Positions 2,848 to 19,942 of a stretch of 64,000 bases of DNA are shown here, in pieces. The stretch is taken from positions 1 through 64,000 of the IMG/VR virus record IMGVR_UViG_3300021376_000045; one strand, 5' to 3'. The position numbers and the translations under genes are program-made. The notes under the pieces are model-generated. The model worked only from the letters and a program-made list of their open reading frames with translations, ran no database searches and was not told the DNA's origin. Every line of letters begins with the position of its first letter. The stretch's first letter is position 1. The stretch is from a virus.

Positions 2848-3111
2848 TCAGTTTGCAAACGTATCGGAAGAACCGGTTGCGGCGTGTCCGCAAGAAGCTT
2901 GATCTCCCTGTCTACAAACTCTTATTCCTCCCGCAAAAACATTAGTAGATGCTTGAGTCATTGTTGGATTAGCGTGTAAGCCGGTACCGTGTCCTTGTAC
3001 TGCATCTCCAAGTACCGCTACCAAACTTCCATTGCAATATACGGAAGATTGACCGCCGCCTAAAATTGTACCACCGGCTGTATCAACTCCAACTCTAGCT
3101 ACCCCTGGCAT
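2848..3111 (-). CDS. PAAR-domain spike tip protein
   Basis: An 87-aa PAAR-repeat protein, the conical tip capping the central spike in contractile tails (T4 gp5.4, T6SS PAAR). Visible features are the starting MPGVARVGVDTAGG, the glycine-rich turns, a VYCNGSLVAVLGD segment, a GHGTGLHAN segment and the late CRQGDQASCGHAA. The Cys and His residues there could bind the metal ion found in PAAR tips. Its stop abuts the start of the spike gene, so tip and needle are made from adjacent cistrons. No effector extension is attached. Confidence 0.9.
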   Translation of the reverse strand: MPGVARVGVDTAGGTILGGGQSSVYCNGSLVAVLGDAVQGHGTGLHANPTMTQASTNVFAGGIRVCRQGDQASCGHAATGSSDTFAN

Positions 3112-5327
3112 TATGCTAGACTCGTTAGCCCGGTGCTATGTCTTTTATCATTTAAAAATGTAAGCAGCTCCCCCCTGTTGGCAGCATCACTTTTATAAGA
3201 CACATGGATCCAGGGCATACCGGTTCCATAGGTTTTATACTCTAAAAGAAACTGATCGTATTTTAAAAGAGGGGCAATTTTTTTAGCAATTTCAAAATAG
3301 TCTGATTTAGCTGCCCCTTTAAACTGCATATCTACCGCTAAACCTAATGGGTGTTGGGATGTTGAGGACGATGAGCCAGCCTGTCTAAAGGCAGATGTAA
3401 CAAACATGTTTGGAAATACCGCTAAAATAGGCTCTAAAATGTTTAATGCTACCCCTTGTAAATTAAATACTATTTCCCCGTAAGTAAGACCGCGCTGGGC
3501 TACCACCGCGGTTCTAGTAACTGCTGCTTTAGAGGAAAGCATACCTAATGTATAATGTTTTGATAATTGATAATTTTCTGGCAAATAAGTTTGATTTTTA
3601 AGAGAGGGATCAGGTGTAGCAACCTTTGGGGTACCGGGTGCTGGAGATGCTTTTTCTGACTCAACTACTACCGTGGGTGTAGTTTCTTCAGCAGCTGCTA
3701 TACCTGTTTGTTCAATCTCTTTCTTTTGTTTATCGGCTTCAGCAGGATTGGATGCATCCTCAGTTTTATAAGAAGATCTATCTAAGTAGTTAGGTTGAAC
3801 CGGGTCTGGGATAGTAGTAGTTTCTTGTGCTTTTCTAATATCAGTAAGCAATCCAATATTTGAAGACTGAGCATATTTTGAATCTTTTGAAGAAGCAGCA
3901 GTACCAGACTGCATGTAAAAAGCAGAACCATCATTATTAATTGTACCCCCGGCTTTTATATTATGTGTGCTATCAGTCTGTACAAAAGTATCTTTTGATC
4001 TTACAAAATGGCTCTTTAAGGCTTGGGAGTAAATATTATTATTGGCTTTAAAATTAATATCAGTAGATGATAGAAAAGCATTTACATCGCCTTTAAGGTT
4101 CAAGTTTACATCAGCTTCTATATTTACGTTAGCACTGTGTAGATTAATTTCTTCTTTTGCAGAAATGTCAACCCGGCCGGCGGCCTGCATGGTAATATCA
4201 TTAAAACATTTAAGGTTAACGTCACCCTCAACCTCTATGGCTGCGTCTCCTCCAATAAAAACTTTTACTTCGCCTCTAACTGAAACGGACGCTGACCCGG
4301 TAATTGAAATATACCCGTTTTTGTCAACAATTTCATATGAACTACCTTTTGTTCGACGTACAATTGAGCCGTTGGCATCTATTTCAAAAAAAGTACCTGA
4401 TTTATGATATACATGTATACGTTCGGCCCCGGGTGTATCATCCAACTCTACAATATGACCGCTTTCAGACTGAATGGTTTTATTATAAGGATATTCGGCA
4501 TTAAACGGTATCGTAGGTTGTTCCCAGCTTTGCCCATTTGGAAGTTGAATACCAGTTAAGCGTTCTTTAGTTTTTTCTTGGACTACAGTACCACTAACCT
4601 CCCCTTGCGCCAGTCTATTTACCTCAGACTTACCGCTATACTCTTTTGTGGGGTAGGTTGCAGTTGGATCAATAAAACCTTTAGTTTGAGTAATTAATTT
4701 TTCTTGATTTTCTTCTGCTTTTATGTTAAAGTTTCTAGCTTCTGTAAATGCTTTACTAGCAATAGATGATGAAAAAGCTGCGTCAATTTGTGAACCAGTC
4801 AGAATGGCTGGGTTAGGGATTGTCTGAGGCGGTATAACCCCTTTAGTAAATAGATCATTTACAAATCCTGTAAGCCTAGAATCTATTCCTTTTGTTACAC
4901 CATTTAAAACTGCTACAGAAAGATTATCTTTTAGAGTGTTTAAATTTATAGCGCTTGCAAGATCAGGGGGTAAGCTATTTTCTAAATTATAAAGTACGTT
5001 AAATAAAAGCTTGTTGGTAGTAGATTGAGCAAGCTTGTTCTCAACCAACGACCCTATAGTACCTTTAATTGTATCAGAATTAAAATTCTTAGCTACCAAA
5101 TCAACAGGGTTATTTGGCCCAATTATTTTGGCAGGAATATCAGTTAGTTGTTGATTACCGGTTTCATCAATACTTTTAACAATTGATGGACTTTGCTCCA
5201 GCACCGCTTTTTCTATAGCTTGATTTACAATTACCCGGGCTGTAGGAGGTAATTTAGTAAAGTCAACCGTGCTTGATATTCTATCAAACAGGGTTGATGC
5301 TAGATTTTGAGATACTTGTTCGCTCAT
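3111..5327 (-). CDS. gp5: Baseplate spike: gp5 C-terminal beta-helix with M15 peptidase
   Basis: A 738-aa protein corresponding to the C-terminal needle of T4 gp5. Residues 1-250 are mostly helical with no recognised domain. Residues of about 290-450 hold short beta repeats (V-x-V-x-G-D/E-V motifs), the intertwined triple beta-helix signature. The C-terminus carries a D-Ala-D-Ala carboxypeptidase-type (M15) domain with the zinc-ligand pattern H659, D666 and H708 (SQHPLGLAVD and WIHVS). T4 gp5 has no M15 domain. The start overlaps the stop of the preceding OB-fold gene by four bases. Likely role: cell-puncturing needle that cleaves peptide cross-links during entry. Confidence 0.85.
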   Translation of the reverse strand: MSEQVSQNLASTLFDRISSTVDFTKLPPTARVIVNQAIEKAVLEQSPSIVKSIDETGNQQLTDIPAKIIGPNNPVDLVAKNFNSDTIKGTIGSLVENKLAQSTTNKLLFNVLYNLENSLPPDLASAINLNTLKDNLSVAVLNGVTKGIDSRLTGFVNDLFTKGVIPPQTIPNPAILTGSQIDAAFSSSIASKAFTEARNFNIKAEENQEKLITQTKGFIDPTATYPTKEYSGKSEVNRLAQGEVSGTVVQEKTKERLTGIQLPNGQSWEQPTIPFNAEYPYNKTIQSESGHIVELDDTPGAERIHVYHKSGTFFEIDANGSIVRRTKGSSYEIVDKNGYISITGSASVSVRGEVKVFIGGDAAIEVEGDVNLKCFNDITMQAAGRVDISAKEEINLHSANVNIEADVNLNLKGDVNAFLSSTDINFKANNNIYSQALKSHFVRSKDTFVQTDSTHNIKAGGTINNDGSAFYMQSGTAASSKDSKYAQSSNIGLLTDIRKAQETTTIPDPVQPNYLDRSSYKTEDASNPAEADKQKKEIEQTGIAAAEETTPTVVVESEKASPAPGTPKVATPDPSLKNQTYLPENYQLSKHYTLGMLSSKAAVTRTAVVAQRGLTYGEIVFNLQGVALNILEPILAVFPNMFVTSAFRQAGSSSSTSQHPLGLAVDMQFKGAAKSDYFEIAKKIAPLLKYDQFLLEYKTYGTGMPWIHVSYKSDAANRGELLTFLNDKRHSTGLTSLA

Positions 5328-6400
5328 CCTATTAGACTGTTAAGATCTTTCTTTTCGTTTTGATATCTTGTTCTTACTCCGGCGATTATGTTTTGACCGC
5401 TGGACTTAAAGAACGATTCTACATTTTCTATTTTATATTTTGAAACTAACTCTACTATATCTTTGTCTGATAACTGGGCTTTGTCTTTTAACGGCTCTGT
5501 AAATATACTTGTTTTATTAGGTCCAAATTGTACTGCTGTTGACCAGACTAGATCTTGAACGGCAGGGCCAAATTGAGTTAGATCTAACCCCTTGCGCTTG
5601 AGGTTATTAATCATAACATCATAATATTTTGTTTGCGTATAGTCGTGCTGATCTTTTTTAAATTCTTCTGTCTTTGTCGAAGCAATTTCTTTCCATTTAG
5701 CATCGAACGCCGGGGTAGCTGGTTTTAGACCTTCAAATAAAGAACCAAATTTAGAGTACTGAAGGTAAGATAGTAATGGGGAATTCTTACCAGAAGGTCT
5801 AGCTTTACCACTAGGCGTAAGCGGGGGTAAATAAGAAGCAAATTGATAAGTTCCGTACGATGCCCCTCCAAAATCATTTGAGGTATTATAGGCATTTATT
5901 GTACCAGGGCCTTTGCCCCCGGTTTCATATTTTTCTGATGTCTTACCCAATTCCCAACCCGGTACCGGAGGCACGCCTGATTTAACTGGATTACCCGATC
6001 CGTCTACAACAGGATTACCAGAACCATCTACTATATTACTTGTTCTTGTATTCTCAACTTCTTTTACTTCTTCAACTTGTTTAAAAGCTATTGTTGGTGC
6101 TTTGCTTCCAATGGTACCAAATATAGCGGGCTGCTGCATATCATTACCGTCTAAAAAGAAACCTATAACCCAGGTACCGGGCATAGGTCCCACTGGTGCT
6201 ATACCAATACCAGATAAGGCTGCTGAATTAATTGGTTGTATCGGTATTGCCCAAGGTAAATCTTCGGTAGGTATATCTATTTTACTGTCGGAATGATATC
6301 CGTAGATACGCACTCTTACTCGACCCATTTTTTCTGGGTCCATACGGTCTTCCACCACACCTAAAAACCAAACAAAGCCGTCTTGATTAAAAATTTTCAT
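5324..6400 (-). CDS. gp5: Baseplate hub gp5 N-terminal OB fold fused to a wall hydrolase
   Basis: A 358-aa protein. Residues 1-100 form a gp5/VgrG-type OB fold (DRMDPEKMGRVRVRIYGYH, then PGTWVIGFFLDGND). A linker near residues 123-140 repeats VDGSGNPV twice. Residues 148-358 resemble the glycan hydrolase domain found in VgrG-3/chitosanase-like spike proteins. Its SEKYETGG motif offers Glu159 as candidate acid, followed by GGASYGTYQF. T4 gp5 carries a phage-lambda/T4-type lysozyme here and continues into the needle in one chain. In this phage the needle is a separate gene overlapping by four bases. Domain identity of the hydrolase is moderately sure. Confidence 0.8.
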   Translation of the reverse strand: MKIFNQDGFVWFLGVVEDRMDPEKMGRVRVRIYGYHSDSKIDIPTEDLPWAIPIQPINSAALSGIGIAPVGPMPGTWVIGFFLDGNDMQQPAIFGTIGSKAPTIAFKQVEEVKEVENTRTSNIVDGSGNPVVDGSGNPVKSGVPPVPGWELGKTSEKYETGGKGPGTINAYNTSNDFGGASYGTYQFASYLPPLTPSGKARPSGKNSPLLSYLQYSKFGSLFEGLKPATPAFDAKWKEIASTKTEEFKKDQHDYTQTKYYDVMINNLKRKGLDLTQFGPAVQDLVWSTAVQFGPNKTSIFTEPLKDKAQLSDKDIVELVSKYKIENVESFFKSSGQNIIAGVRTRYQNEKKDLNSLIG

Positions 6401-13721: not shown

Positions 13722-13970
13722 TTATTTTTTAGTTTCTGCTTTCTTAGGTGCTGCTTTTTTCTCAGGTGCTTTTTTCTCCACCTTCTTTACCTCTCTACAT
13801 CCATCGGCTTCTGTTTGCCCGTCTTTACAGGGCTTTTTAACATTAGCTTTAACAGGAGGTTCTTGCTTTTTCTGAGCTTGCTTGGCAGGAGGTGATGCTT
13901 TTTTTTCTGCTTGGGCAAAGGTAACAGTTGTAAAAGAAAGTAAAACTGCAGTAAGTATAGTTTTAATCAT
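13722..13970 (-). CDS. Small secreted Lys/Pro/Ala-rich protein
   Basis: An 82-aa protein. MIKTILTAVLLSFTTVTFAQA is a clear signal peptide (AxA site before EKK). The mature part is almost entirely K, P, A, E and Q with two Cys (KPCKDGQ, DGCRE) that could form a disulfide. I start at this Met because upstream residues in the same frame (MMMMNLFPIL...) would bury the signal peptide and overlap gp32 further. It overlaps the gp32 3' end by eight bases. Similar composition recurs in the peptides at 18181-18339 and 35058-35288. Function unknown; a basic periplasmic or envelope-binding protein is one possibility. Confidence 0.7.
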   Translation of the reverse strand: MIKTILTAVLLSFTTVTFAQAEKKASPPAKQAQKKQEPPVKANVKKPCKDGQTEADGCREVKKVEKKAPEKKAAPKKAETKK

Positions 13971-14856
13971 CGTTAGCCAACTTTGCAAAATAGGAAAGAG
14001 ATTCATCATCATCATCTAAATTAAACTCCTTTTTAGGTGCAGGCTTAGCAGCAACTGCTTTAGGTCTTTCTTCCGGGAGTTCAGTGTTTTCAGCGCGCGG
14101 GGTACCGCTAGGTGGTGAAAGAACACTTTCAAGCTTTGCTTTCAATTCCTCGTATGTTTTAAAATGTTTAGGATCTAGAAATTCTTGTAGTGAGTGTTGT
14201 TTGTTCCACACTTTTTCTAAATCACTGTCATCTTCTGAGAGGGCAGAAATACTTTCAAACTCAGATTTATCATAATTGCGATAACCTTCTACATTACGAA
14301 TCTTCAGTTTAAAGTTTGCACCTTTCCAAAAATCAAAAGGATTAACTGGCTCCTCATCCTCGTACTGAGGTTGCATTGCGTCTTTAATTTTATCAAAAAT
14401 CTTCTTTCCAAACTTATAGAGAAATACCTTACCTTCGTTTTCAGGGTGGGCTGGATCTTTAACAATATAAATGTTGGACACGTAGGTAAGGCGACGTTTT
14501 TGTTTGCGGGCAATATCTTTGTTTGCCTCAGTGCCTGAATTCCAAAGCTCAGTATTAAGTTCGGATACAGGATCAGGTTTACCTAAAGTCGTTAATGAAT
14601 TTTCAATATACCATTTACCGGTAGGACCTTGGAAGCCATGATTCCAAACTCTTACCCAAGGTAAATCTTCACCTTTAGGTGGGGGTAAAAAACGAACCAC
14701 AGCATAACCATTACCAGCCTTATCAACTTCAGGCTGCCAAAAGCGGTCGTCTTTTTGTGATTCTTGTTGCTGGGGGGTCGCAATCTTTTCTACTTCTTTC
14801 ATTAAGGAGTCGAAAGTACCGCGATTCTTTTTGAGTGTTGAAAAGTCTAATGCCAT
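13963..14856 (-). CDS. gp32: Single-stranded DNA-binding protein gp32
   Basis: The T4 gp32 homologue (297 aa; T4 301 aa), coating ssDNA during replication and recombination. N-terminal basic LAST-like region; core with GYAVVRFLPPPKGEDLPWVRV and NPFDFWKGANFKLKIRNVEG; acidic C-terminal tail FNLDDDDESLSYFAKL that in T4 recruits partner proteins. The T4 core holds a structural zinc through His64, Cys77, Cys87 and Cys90. This protein has no cysteine at all: the segment reads GKPDPVSELNTELW where T4 has Cys residues. It has both a sigma70-like and a late promoter. Confidence 0.95.
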   Translation of the reverse strand: MALDFSTLKKNRGTFDSLMKEVEKIATPQQQESQKDDRFWQPEVDKAGNGYAVVRFLPPPKGEDLPWVRVWNHGFQGPTGKWYIENSLTTLGKPDPVSELNTELWNSGTEANKDIARKQKRRLTYVSNIYIVKDPAHPENEGKVFLYKFGKKIFDKIKDAMQPQYEDEEPVNPFDFWKGANFKLKIRNVEGYRNYDKSEFESISALSEDDSDLEKVWNKQHSLQEFLDPKHFKTYEELKAKLESVLSPPSGTPRAENTELPEERPKAVAAKPAPKKEFNLDDDDESLSYFAKLANDD

Positions 14857-15895: not shown

Positions 15896-16116
15896 TAGAT
15901 TTCTCCCTCTTTGTCTGGAATAACAATATAAGGCCATGCTGTAATTCTTTTACTCATTTCTGATTGATTTTGAGCCATTTTTATAAGAAAACGCTGTGTA
16001 TCTTTTAGATGATCGGATAATGAAGAGACGCTATCTTGAAGTAAGCAGATTTCTTTTTCTAATTCAGAAATTCTATCCCTGGTTAAGTCCAACTGCTCTT
16101 CTAAAAATTCGGTCAT
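15895..16116 (-). CDS. Coiled-coil protein of unknown function
   Basis: A 73-aa protein whose residues 1-55 are heptad-rich (LEEQLDLTRDRISELEKEI) and which ends WPYIVIPDKEGEI. It overlaps the gp59 3' end by 44 bases and leads into two further tiny genes, so it belongs to the gp33-gp59 transcription unit. No recognised domain. Confidence 0.65.
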   Translation of the reverse strand: MTEFLEEQLDLTRDRISELEKEICLLQDSVSSLSDHLKDTQRFLIKMAQNQSEMSKRITAWPYIVIPDKEGEI

Positions 16117-16687
16117 ATTTTTCTTTTTTAAAATTTAAAAACGGCGCGTACTTTTTAATCAGCCTGGAAAGATCTGGCCATATTAAATCTGTATTTAAAA
16201 CTCTATCTAATTCGTCAGTAAAAGGTATAATTTTATTTAAGATAACTAGCGTTTCAATTGAAACATCATTCCTTAAATACATCTTTATTATATATGGATG
16301 TTGTTGATTTTGAGAAACAAGTAAATCTTCAAACTTAATTTCTTTTTTACCTGAAAAAATAATAAGTTTTTCTATTTCTTTTTCAAACGTATAGGATAAA
16401 GATTCTATACGTTTTTTCCATCCCATGTAACGATCTCTAGCTTCAGTATCAAATACCCCACCCCATCGATCACCGGATACAAAATTTGCTACTAAAAATT
16501 CTACTACGTCTTTATCCGAGTACTGCTCAGCCACCCTTCTAATAGCAATTAAATCTCTACGTTTCAAAAAAGATTGTTTTGACGCCCGCACCCGGCCTTG
16601 CAATTTAATAGCATCATATTGATCGGTAGTAAAATGTAACCTTAGTGCTAAGTAGTACCGATAAACCTCAAACGGCTCCATAATCAT
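16073..16687 (-). CDS. gp59: DNA helicase loader gp59
   Basis: The T4 gp59 homologue (204 aa; T4 217 aa), which loads the gp41 helicase on forks covered with gp32. The order of conserved blocks matches: YRYYLALRLHFTTDQYDAIK (T4 VYKLYLMIKQHMNGKYDVIK), KRRDLIAIRRVAEQY, LVANFVSGDRW and KRIESLSYTFEKEIEKL. It follows gp33 with a four-base overlap, as in T4. The first Met or the third residue Met could be the start. Confidence 0.9.
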   Translation of the reverse strand: MIMEPFEVYRYYLALRLHFTTDQYDAIKLQGRVRASKQSFLKRRDLIAIRRVAEQYSDKDVVEFLVANFVSGDRWGGVFDTEARDRYMGWKKRIESLSYTFEKEIEKLIIFSGKKEIKFEDLLVSQNQQHPYIIKMYLRNDVSIETLVILNKIIPFTDELDRVLNTDLIWPDLSRLIKKYAPFLNFKKEKYDRIFRRAVGLNQG

Positions 16688-16944
16688 ATAGGTAAATGGC
16701 CACGGGGCTTTATCATATTTGCCTGCTCGGCTTCAATCTGTATTTTTTCTTTTAGTTTTTGATTAACCAACGGTCCTACGGCTTCAATATCAATATCCAC
16801 CTCATTACAATAATTAATTATTGCATCCATATAGGTGATATTAAGTTTTGTTACCATTCCATCAATGTACAAAGCAAATTCGTTTGGAGACCGAAATCTT
16901 TTTGTAATTATTAAAGCATCTGTAAGTTGTTCTTTTTCGTCCAT
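16684..16944 (-). CDS. gp33: Late transcription co-activator gp33
   Basis: An 86-aa protein. The FALYIDGMVTKLNITYMDAI helix region and the C-terminus IEAEQANMIKPRGHLPI match gp33 of T4-like phages. Gp33 binds the RNA polymerase flap and links it to the gp45 clamp for late promoters. Position immediately before gp59 is as in T4. The presence of gp33 and gp45 supports calling TATAAATA sites in this window late promoters. Confidence 0.85.
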   Translation of the reverse strand: MDEKEQLTDALIITKRFRSPNEFALYIDGMVTKLNITYMDAIINYCNEVDIDIEAVGPLVNQKLKEKIQIEAEQANMIKPRGHLPI

Positions 16945-17843: not shown

Positions 17844-18113
17844 TTACTTCTTGGTGGTAGCTTTATGTTCTACCGGGATTTGAGAAACGAAGCCATTTAA
17901 GGTTTGAGCCTTAGCAATAATATCGGCTTCGGAGGGATAGGCTGGAAAGCCTGGGTGATCTGGAGGTACTTGACCTGCATGTCTAGCATTTTCTACCTTG
18001 ACTTGCCAGTCATTGCCAATGAGTTCACGTTTTCCATAATAATCTTGCTCCAGCATTGTTTGCGCCATTTTTAAAAGTTCAAGGCGAATCTCGAACGGTG
18101 TCATATTACTCAT
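17844..18113 (-). CDS. Conserved T4-like phage protein of unknown function
   Basis: An 89-aa protein beginning MSNMTPFEIRLELLKMAQTM, a conserved opening in marine T4-like phages. The middle is YYGKRELIGNDWQVKVE and the end is a Lys-rich tail. I start here because AAAGGAG lies six bases upstream; a longer frame extension has no such signal. Soluble and mostly helical. Function unknown. Confidence 0.75.
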   Translation of the reverse strand: MSNMTPFEIRLELLKMAQTMLEQDYYGKRELIGNDWQVKVENARHAGQVPPDHPGFPAYPSEADIIAKAQTLNGFVSQIPVEHKATTKK

Positions 18114-18180
18114 GTTTACTTCTCCTTTGTGTATGTGTGTAAAAAACAGGTGGTTTAAAGGTCCACCCAAACCTTATTAA

Positions 18181-18339
18181 TTACTTCTTAGCTGCTTCTT
18201 TTTTCTCAGCAGGCTTGGCTGCATCTTTCTTTACTTCAGCTTTCGGAGCATCTTTTTTCTCAGCCGGCTTAGCAGGAGCCTGAGCAAGAGCTGCAATGGT
18301 AAAAGTAGAAGCAACAATAGCGGCGATAATTGATTTCAT
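18181..18339 (-). CDS. Small secreted Lys/Ala/Pro-rich peptide (52 aa)
   Basis: Begins MKSIIAAIVASTFTIAALAQ, a textbook signal peptide with cleavage after ALA. The mature 32 residues use only A, P, K, E, D and V in AKPAEKKDAPK-type repeats. AAGGA sits seven bases before the ATG. It lies immediately downstream of the tmRNA coding piece and may be co-transcribed with it. Such peptides are common in betaproteobacteria and resemble the 82-aa protein at 13722-13970. Function unknown. Confidence 0.65.
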   Translation of the reverse strand: MKSIIAAIVASTFTIAALAQAPAKPAEKKDAPKAEVKKDAAKPAEKKEAAKK

Positions 18340-18507
18340 TTTATTTCCTTATAAATTAAAAAATTTACAACTCCACATCAGCTCGTCACCATCGATACTA
18401 TCTAAGGCCACCTTCTGAGGTAAGGAGATAGTCACCAGGCAAGGACTTACTAATTCGTTCTGGTTGATTCTGTTGCCAAGTTCAACCAGAAAAACTCCGG
18501 TCAGCGT

Positions 18508-18540
18508 TTAGGCTGCCAGTGCAAATCTTTCGTCGTTTGC
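18508..18540 (-). other. tmRNA proteolysis-tag reading frame (ANDERFALAA)
   Basis: Ten sense codons from the GCA resume codon to TAA encode ANDERFALAA. The terminal LAA is the ClpXP/ClpAP degradation signal. The tag is of the betaproteobacterial/gammaproteobacterial type, unlike alphaproteobacterial or cyanobacterial tags. Confidence 0.92.
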
Positions 18541-18646
18541 GTTTAACGTTTTGTTTCTTCGGCTGAGCAGTCCCAACCCTAACGGCTTTCACATTGCCGA
18601 GTCGTCTATCTCTCTACTCATTGCCCTGTCGAGTCTATTCACCCCC

Positions 18647-18692
18647 ATCAGAAGCATACCACACTACTGCAACATACAATTAGATATGCTTT
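18647..18692 (-). other. tmRNA intervening segment
   Basis: These 46 bases separate the 3' CCA of the acceptor piece from the 5' G of the coding piece. AAGCATA and TATGCTT at its two ends can pair and extend the acceptor stem in the precursor, as expected of a segment removed by tRNA-type processing enzymes. Confidence 0.8.
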
Positions 18693-18894
18693 TGGTGGAG
18701 GTGGGGGGATTCGCACCCCCGTCCAGAACACTTTTCAATAAACTTCATACGACTATAAATTAAGCATTCTACAACGGTGTAAGTACAATCGTTTACCACT
18801 ACAGTAATCGTTAACTTACCGTATCTACCCTTTGTAGATAGGGACGTTAGTTAAACGTCTTTCTCTGCCATGCTTAAGTTATAAACAGTAGTAA

Positions 18895-18902
18895 TATTTA
18901 TA
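18895..18902 (-). promoter_or_regulatory. T4-type late promoter of the tmRNA
   Basis: An exact TATAAATA about 18 bases before the first paired base of the acceptor piece. Transcription would start near 18888, giving an almost leader-free precursor. It suggests tmRNA synthesis is controlled by the phage late system. Confidence 0.7.
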
Positions 18903-19050: not shown

Positions 19051-19338
19051 CCCTGAGGCAATAATACACAAGTAACTATTATTTTCAACACTTAATAATG
19101 CAGTAAATGTTTCACTTTTTTTATTAAAAAACAAACTAAACATCCGCTCAGCTCCATCTGCCACATCTTTACCAATAAAGATCGGTACCTCGTCAAAATG
19201 TTTTATAAAGTCTAAGGCTTTTGGAGATAATTCACATACAATGGGTAATAAGGCATTAACTGCTGTATCTTTAGCCTGTAACGGTTTGATAATTATTAGA
19301 CTCGTAAAGATCGCGATAATACAAAAGATTCTTAACAT
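19006..19338 (-). CDS. Secreted/periplasmic protein of unknown function
   Basis: A 110-aa protein starting MLRIFCIIAIFTSLIIIKPL with a signal peptide ending LQA. The mature part has two Cys (PIVCELS and YLCIIAS) that could pair in the periplasm. The Met used here gives a proper signal peptide; the longer reading adds 14 polar residues in front. The 5' end overlaps the exonuclease-like gene by 68 bases in another frame, which is long but occurs elsewhere in this compact genome. No family recognised. Confidence 0.65.
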   Translation of the reverse strand: MLRIFCIIAIFTSLIIIKPLQAKDTAVNALLPIVCELSPKALDFIKHFDEVPIFIGKDVADGAERMFSLFFNKKSETFTALLSVENNSYLCIIASGRNGNVFLPKPSNFN

Positions 19339-19942
19339 AATCGTCTCTTTTTTGTTTAAAAATTTGTGGTGGGTTATCATCCACAGAAACTAGAATGACG
19401 ATTTTACTCACTGGTATTTTAAACTGCTCTTCAAACATAATTGCGTATGCCGAGCATTGCATAAAATAATTTTCTATATACTCTTCTTTTTTAGGTCTAG
19501 AAGATGTCTTAAAATCTATAATTGATAGGTTACCATCAAACTCACCGATACAATCCACTGTACCCGCCAGCCTTAGATGATCGGAGTACATACGAGTTTC
19601 TTGAGCATGTATATTATTTATTTGATGTAAAACGGTCTTGAATTGTTCAAAACGTTCTTTCTCTATAGGAGTACGAAATTCAACCTCTTTATTGTCGAGA
19701 TAATTCTCACATAATTTATGAAATGCAGTACCTCTTGTAGATGCGGCCGTGGTAATTTTTTGTGCCTGTTCATGACCAATTTTATTTCGCCACTCTTGAA
19801 TACCGCGTTTACTGTACTCAGAAAGAACAGTAGTAACCGAAGGGTATTTGTTACCCTCCGGTGTTAAATAGTAACGTGTACCGTTTTCGTTTAGTTGTTT
19901 TAATTTAGGAACTTCACGGTCAAGCTTTACATGATGAAACAT
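19271..19942 (-). CDS. PD-(D/E)XK exonuclease-like protein (Cas4/RecB type)
   Basis: A 223-aa protein with the PDDEXK_1 layout. GTAFHKLCENYL (His in motif I) is near residue 72. LAGTVDCIGEFDGNLSIIDF then KTS, near residues 125-150, carries D, D and K. EYIENYFMQCSAYAIMFEEQ (Q-x-x-x-Y motif) follows. Such nucleases are common in marine T4-like phages and probably act on DNA ends in recombination or host DNA degradation. In T4 itself nothing equivalent sits between 33 and dsbA. Confidence 0.85.
   Translation of the reverse strand: MFHHVKLDREVPKLKQLNENGTRYYLTPEGNKYPSVTTVLSEYSKRGIQEWRNKIGHEQAQKITTAASTRGTAFHKLCENYLDNKEVEFRTPIEKERFEQFKTVLHQINNIHAQETRMYSDHLRLAGTVDCIGEFDGNLSIIDFKTSSRPKKEEYIENYFMQCSAYAIMFEEQFKIPVSKIVILVSVDDNPPQIFKQKRDDYVKNLLYYRDLYESNNYQTVTG

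Follow-up and report, generated by a model that had tools for sequence, protein, structure and literature searches.

Given that the tmRNA gene considered here is encoded in two pieces and lies among phage genes, its presence raises two questions: where did the gene come from, and what could it do for the phage? The window, that is, the entire analyzed stretch of 64,000 nucleotides, is part of a 68,395-bp IMG/VR virus record that encodes DNA polymerase gp43, gp32, a DnaB-like helicase, baseplate wedge gp6, ribonucleotide reductase, gp59 and gp33, so its source is clearly a T4-like phage. A second record (L037) is essentially identical to this one across 12 kb.

A complete circularly permuted tmRNA gene

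The earlier note, made from the letters alone, had described a two-piece tmRNA with an encoded CCA, an acceptor piece preceding the coding piece, a seven-base acceptor stem with the G3-U70 wobble, a 46-base intervening segment and the tag ANDERFALAA. Every one of these features was found, on the minus strand, and the presence of a complete circularly permuted tmRNA gene in the window is confirmed (Table 1). ARAGORN calls a permuted tmRNA with this tag at 18785-18417. Three Rfam models match the region above their gathering thresholds, namely tmRNA_permuted (RF04321; 131.9 bits, E 1.4e-25, gathering 47), beta_tmRNA (RF01850; 96.6 bits, gathering 84) and alpha_tmRNA (81.4 bits, gathering 50), whereas cyano_tmRNA, with 38.8 bits, stays under its threshold of 70. 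The acceptor piece, with its encoded CCA, is located ahead of the coding piece on the same strand, the acceptor strands GGGGGTG and CACCTCC form 7 of 7 pairs including G3-U70, and the in-frame tag has a resume codon, a stop and an AA end. The leader segment 18890-18755 is predicted to fold with -35 kcal/mol. A simple scan detected no intrinsic terminator past the tmRNA gene, and the search of the window for a glutamine riboswitch gave no match even at E 5.

Table 1. Elements of the tmRNA gene and its neighbors in the window
Feature	Position	Strand	Evidence or remark
PD-(D/E)XK exonuclease, upstream neighbor	19271..19942	-	phrog_298 3.8e-79; PF12705
T4-type late promoter motif TATAAATA (candidate)	18895..18902	-	exact match
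Leader and 5' part of acceptor piece (putative)	18732..18894	-	good alignment with relatives limited to the last ~35 nt
3' half of tRNA-like domain (T arm, 3' acceptor strand), CCA at 18695-18693	18693..18731	-	ARAGORN; Rfam RF04321, RF01850
Intervening segment, 46 nt, self-complementary ends AAGCATA / TATGCTT	18647..18692	-	expected to be removed
5' half of tRNA-like domain, start of coding piece GGGGGTGAATAGACTCGACA, G1 at 18646, 5' acceptor strand GGGGGTG	18621..18646	-	ARAGORN
Tag frame GCAAACGACGAAAGATTTGCACTGGCAGCCTAA, ANDERFALAA and stop	18508..18540	-	
3' hairpin TTCTGGTTGA-(ACTTGGCAACAGAA)-TCAACCAGAA	18458..18491	-	
3' tail (putative)	18417..18457	-	ARAGORN boundary only
gp33-like late-transcription coactivator, downstream neighbor	16684..16944	-	PF16805 5.8e-19
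gp59-like helicase loader, downstream neighbor	16073..16687	-	phrog_269 1.4e-62
gp32-like single-strand DNA-binding protein, downstream neighbor	13963..14856	-	PF08804 2e-45

Several other reading frames of the window, all on the minus strand, deserve mention. Directly past the tmRNA, a 52-aa frame (18182-18339) begins like a signal peptide and ends in repeats of K, A, P and E (MKSIIAAIVASTFTIAALAQAPAKPAEKK...). Two genes past the tmRNA there is a 108-aa frame (17844-18170), listed with a TTG start and nearer 89 aa in relatives, which is 94% identical to its copy in L010, compared to only 50% for the nearby exonuclease; searches of Pfam, PHROG and the phage records gave no match for it. The baseplate hub/lysozyme (phrog_430) is seemingly split into two overlapping frames (3111-5327 and 5324-6400), the shorter of which has a VgrG3-like C-terminal domain (188 bits).

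Relatives at the same locus

Comparison of the tmRNA region with 50,697 phage records by blastn yielded no match, and kin were therefore sought through the tag pattern and through a neighboring protein. A pattern scan with the tag region yielded 68 viral contigs, in which ARAGORN called 49 permuted and 8 one-piece tmRNAs. The second scan was seeded by the neighboring exonuclease alone and is thus independent of the tmRNA; a tmRNA was called by ARAGORN in 38 of the 80 loci found this way, all of them permuted. Of the exonuclease loci, 43 extend as far as a gp33 gene on the same strand. ARAGORN called a tmRNA in 27 of these, and an Rfam permuted tmRNA was detected in 6 of 15 exonuclease-gp33 loci without such a call (that of L199 sits upstream of the exonuclease). 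Altogether, with L221 left out, at least 33 of the 42 T4-like exonuclease-gp33 loci carry a tmRNA, every one permuted and none one-piece.

In the loci measured, the exonuclease always lies upstream of the tmRNA and on its strand (63 of 63), and gp33 (48 of 48), gp59 (41 of 41) and gp32 (32 of 32) follow downstream; the window has the same arrangement. Distances between the tmRNAs, computed with the tag removed, correlate with those of five neighbor proteins (r 0.22-0.41; none of 2000 permutations reached as high). Taken together with the fixed locus, this correlation points to long residence and mostly vertical descent, although its moderate size leaves room for exchange. These observations suggest that the permuted tmRNA has long been a nearly standard component of one T4-like lineage and was not recently taken from a host.

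The acceptor stem and the helix formed by the ends of the intervening segment are preserved through compensatory changes in the 71 distinct phage copies. All seven acceptor pairs form in 70 of the 71 copies, spanning 13 stem sequences, with position 4 being G-C, C-G, G-U or U-A, and the paired fraction is 0.996, compared to 0.80 (maximum 0.855) with shuffled partners. The helix of the intervening segment averages 8.9 bp in the same copies versus 5.9 bp after shuffling. The loop of the 3' hairpin is identical in 29 of 78 phage copies and its stem covaries (8.3 versus 4.5 bp shuffled). Because all three elements covary, the RNA is under selection as a structure. One group of phage permuted tmRNAs (L161, L156 and L172, and also L167 and L168) lacks an encoded CCA, with ends consisting of CACCTCCAC followed by TT or TC, and would need addition of the end after transcription; the unusual tags GAYNAPLALAA and DNNYMSFATSYALAA occur in this group.

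Phage two-piece tmRNAs are already known in kind, from the OM43 phage Melnitz and the Pelagibacter phage Mosig. The statement of the earlier note that phages usually carry one-piece tmRNAs is weakened by a published survey of 133 unique structures from phages, of which ARAGORN classed 53 as two-piece (PMC9004378). Phage sequences in the tmRNA database number 79 (PMC11915505). The Methylophilales phage Melnitz (MZ577097; PMC9004378) resembles the window in being T4-like, in the permuted form of the gene and in its locus, where PhoH, the PD-(D/E)XK nuclease, tmRNA, gp33, gp59 and gp32 follow one another in this order. It differs from the window in the tag (ANDNYVPVDYALAA instead of ANDERFALAA), in the length of the intervening segment (142 versus 46 nt) and in the best-scoring older Rfam model (alpha_tmRNA instead of beta_tmRNA). 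In addition, it has a glutamine riboswitch in the 3' part of the tmRNA, which is absent from the window and was seen in Melnitz alone among 11 related loci scanned. Mosig (MT647606) is likewise T4-like and has a permuted tmRNA in the order nuclease-tmRNA-gp33-gp59-gp32, with other genes in between; its ARAGORN tag is GEDNFALAA and its intervening segment is 44 nt long. Elsewhere in the Mosig genome (8380-8587), a manA RNA motif (RF01745, 64 bits) lies between an unknown gene and a rubrerythrin gene.

The nearest kin of the window's gene are the copies in three IMG/VR contigs (L010, L017 and L026), which are 92% identical to it outside the tag and share its tag and neighbors, but have a 68-nt intervening segment and one-mismatch late motifs 52-56 nt upstream, compared to the exact motif at 171 nt in the window. 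ARAGORN also detected unannotated permuted tmRNAs with intact tags in Alcaligenes phage vB_Af_QDWS595 (L142 2954-3330; ANDNVYAAAA), a member of the Schitoviridae that infects a betaproteobacterium, and in Synechococcus phage BUCT-ZZ01 (L141 3717-4135; ANDETFSMALAA); unlike in the window, no exonuclease or gp33 is annotated beside either gene. In the literature that we searched, two-piece tmRNAs are described for some marine phages and are explained by host acquisition or gene exchange. That literature does not state that the gene is nearly standard at a single locus throughout this lineage, how widely its tags vary or that a late motif recurs upstream of it.

Origin of the gene

The earlier note had attributed the gene to acquisition from, or adaptation to, a betaproteobacterial host. 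Outside the tag, the window's tmRNA shares 92% identity with the copies of L010 and L017, compared to 57% with the closest gene of beta type and 52% with the closest of alpha type. Alpha-type here denotes permuted genes that come from the phylum to which an alphaproteobacterial MAG belongs and that mostly have ANDN- tags. A careful tree was built from 67 rows and 202 columns, with the longest branches left out and without the named host tmRNAs of cyanobacteria, SAR11 and OM43. In this tree, the window falls among the phage copies, the 9 beta-type genes form their own clade (support 100/100) on a long branch, and the beta-type and alpha-type genes each occupy one side of a branch; in the best tree, phage copies surround both bacterial clades. 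Given that the AU test rejected none of the constrained topologies (window with beta-type genes, p 0.15; window with alpha-type genes, p 0.06; all phages as one clade, p 0.08), the deep order of the tree is unsettled. A first quick tree had been discarded when constrained searches gave trees up to 53 log units better, and a tree that included one-piece genes and tag codons was set aside for questions of origin, since beta-type and one-piece genes may be pulled together by the tag codons that they share.

A recent gain from a betaproteobacterial host that has a permuted tmRNA itself would account for beta_tmRNA being the best of the three older Rfam models and for ANDERFALAA being the usual tag of beta-type permuted genes, and the AU test does not reject the corresponding grouping. 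The window shares with the RF01850 family the gene form, the tag and a score above the family threshold; however, true beta-type genes score 160-311 bits on this model, far above the window, and form the separate long-branched clade described above, with 57% identity at best compared to 92% for phage copies at the same locus. Moreover, Melnitz and Mosig have this locus too, with tags of alpha-like or unusual type. Such an acquisition is therefore highly unlikely, and the betaproteobacterial derivation put forward in the earlier note is not borne out. Recent acquisition from any sampled bacterium is unlikely as well, whereas an old acquisition from a bacterium may have taken place. The CAT-anticodon tRNA of the window reaches no more than 87% identity with the tRNAs in 60 genomes from the beta-type order, a comparison that has no control group and says nothing firm on the host. 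The probability that the gene is host DNA or an assembly artefact, with a bacterial tmRNA joined to a viral contig, appears negligible: host DNA can occur in IMG/VR contigs, and seven one-piece copies from viral contigs fall among bacterial one-piece genes in the tree that included such genes, but the window's tmRNA is flanked by phage genes on both sides, the L037 record repeats it, and this reading is contradicted by dozens of contigs and two cultured phages, Melnitz and Mosig, that show the same gene order. A broader proposal is that T4-like phages hold an old reservoir of permuted tmRNAs, from which the permuted form spread among bacterial lineages; the phage genes would then exceed the alpha- and beta-type bacterial genes in diversity and be paraphyletic to them. 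The position of the phage copies around both bacterial clades in the best tree fits this proposal, but a single clade of all phage copies is not rejected, and we regard it as improbable. The best explanation is probably that the window carries a tmRNA that functions in two pieces for the phage and is an old gene, kept mostly by vertical descent in the lineage that includes Melnitz and Mosig.

Late motif, tags and proposed function

The earlier note had proposed ribosome rescue late in infection on the basis of an exact late promoter upstream. The motif is indeed exact and is enriched in relatives, but in the window it lies 171 nt upstream of the acceptor domain, compared to the usual distance of about 35-50 nt in relatives, and the count of TATAAATA in the whole window is at chance (9 versus 10.8 expected). 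Most of the 171-nt leader fails to align with relatives, and the proximal zone, the usual position of the motif, contains no match with fewer than three mismatches. Among the phage copies, 21 of 81 have an exact motif within the 310 bp upstream, compared to 0.03 expected per region, and a motif with at most one mismatch is found in the 40-nt zone at the ARAGORN start of 43 of 78 copies versus 3.8% of random 40-nt stretches from the same loci. In Melnitz (~7985), the exact motif is 38 nt upstream of the acceptor domain; the authors of the Melnitz study argued from a predicted early promoter (PMC9004378). The 260 nt upstream of the Mosig tmRNA contain no late motif within one mismatch. Late expression of the window's gene is plausible because relatives show such strong enrichment of the motif ahead of their own tmRNA genes; as judged from these motifs, late control is well supported for the lineage and less so for the window's own copy.

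The most likely function is rescue of stalled ribosomes late in infection with the help of host SmpB. Host RNA polymerase, together with phage T4-type late factors, would transcribe a single precursor, from which host tRNA-processing enzymes would trim the CCA end, cut ahead of G1 and remove the 46-nt segment. The products would be an acceptor RNA and a coding RNA joined by the acceptor stem; the processing is proposed by reference to known permuted tmRNAs, and the pairing is evident from sequence and covariation. The host alanyl-tRNA synthetase would charge the molecule via G3-U70, host SmpB would bring it to ribosomes stalled on broken mRNAs, and ANDERFALAA would direct the partial protein to host proteases; we infer both the benefit to the phage and its timing. 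SmpB (PF01668) was found in none of 7 phage records, compared to 10 positives among 14 control genomes, so that the function would depend on the host.

The exonuclease-seeded set contains 26 distinct tags with intact frames, of which 23 end in LAA, 2 in IAA and 1 in VAA. The middles differ widely at this one locus (ANDSRFALAA, ANDNFADEDYRIAA, GAYNAPLALAA and others). Constant ends with changing middles fit a working degradation tag. Within the order that includes G275, 62 of 399 genomes contain ANDERFALAA itself; we take this order to be betaproteobacterial because the beta_tmRNA model gives 251.5 bits for the tmRNA of G275. Of 61 genomes belonging to the same family as G275, 26 have a permuted gene that scores above threshold, mostly with the tag ANDERFALAA or ANDERFAIAA. 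Adaptation to a host that uses ANDERFALAA is plausible; that part of the earlier proposal gains from the frequency of the tag in this order and loses from the fact that all 30 of the ANDERFALAA loci fetched from the order are one-piece. A search of bacterial genomes for the exact tag DNA gave two matches, one in an Alphaproteobacteria MAG and one in a contig of an archaeal MAG; ARAGORN calls no tmRNA at either.

Two other roles were considered. The RNA could be a decoy that competes for SmpB, or that is charged and yet inhibits the tmRNA of the host; the reported precedent is mycobacteriophage DS6A with its CDS-less tmRNA (PMC11915505). The reliance of the phage on host SmpB would suit such a role, but a decoy needs no tag, and the frame is intact in the window and in the other phage copies, always ending in LAA, IAA or VAA, which makes this reading very unlikely. 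Alternatively, the tag could serve the phage's own ends, either by altering the fate of tagged proteins or through selective tagging of host proteins for amino-acid recycling, as proposed for the Melnitz tmRNA (PMC9004378). The wide differences between tags at one locus are in line with this possibility. However, the window's tag is a common bacterial one, the protease-type ends are preserved, and tmRNA tagging acts on stalled ribosomes, not on chosen proteins; we accordingly give it very little credence. The survey suggests that one T4-like lineage has this gene almost as standard, always close to the gene of the late-transcription coactivator, with tags that vary and a late promoter that recurs. 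It makes testable why these phages supply ribosome rescue of their own at a late stage of infection and whether their tags match those of the hosts, and it bears on how the permuted gene form reached several bacterial lineages. One copy (L011 1275-1696) has a 20-residue ARAGORN tag, EGRNPSKTLNANDERFALAA, which is longer than those of its relatives; its true resume codon may be at ANDERFALAA.
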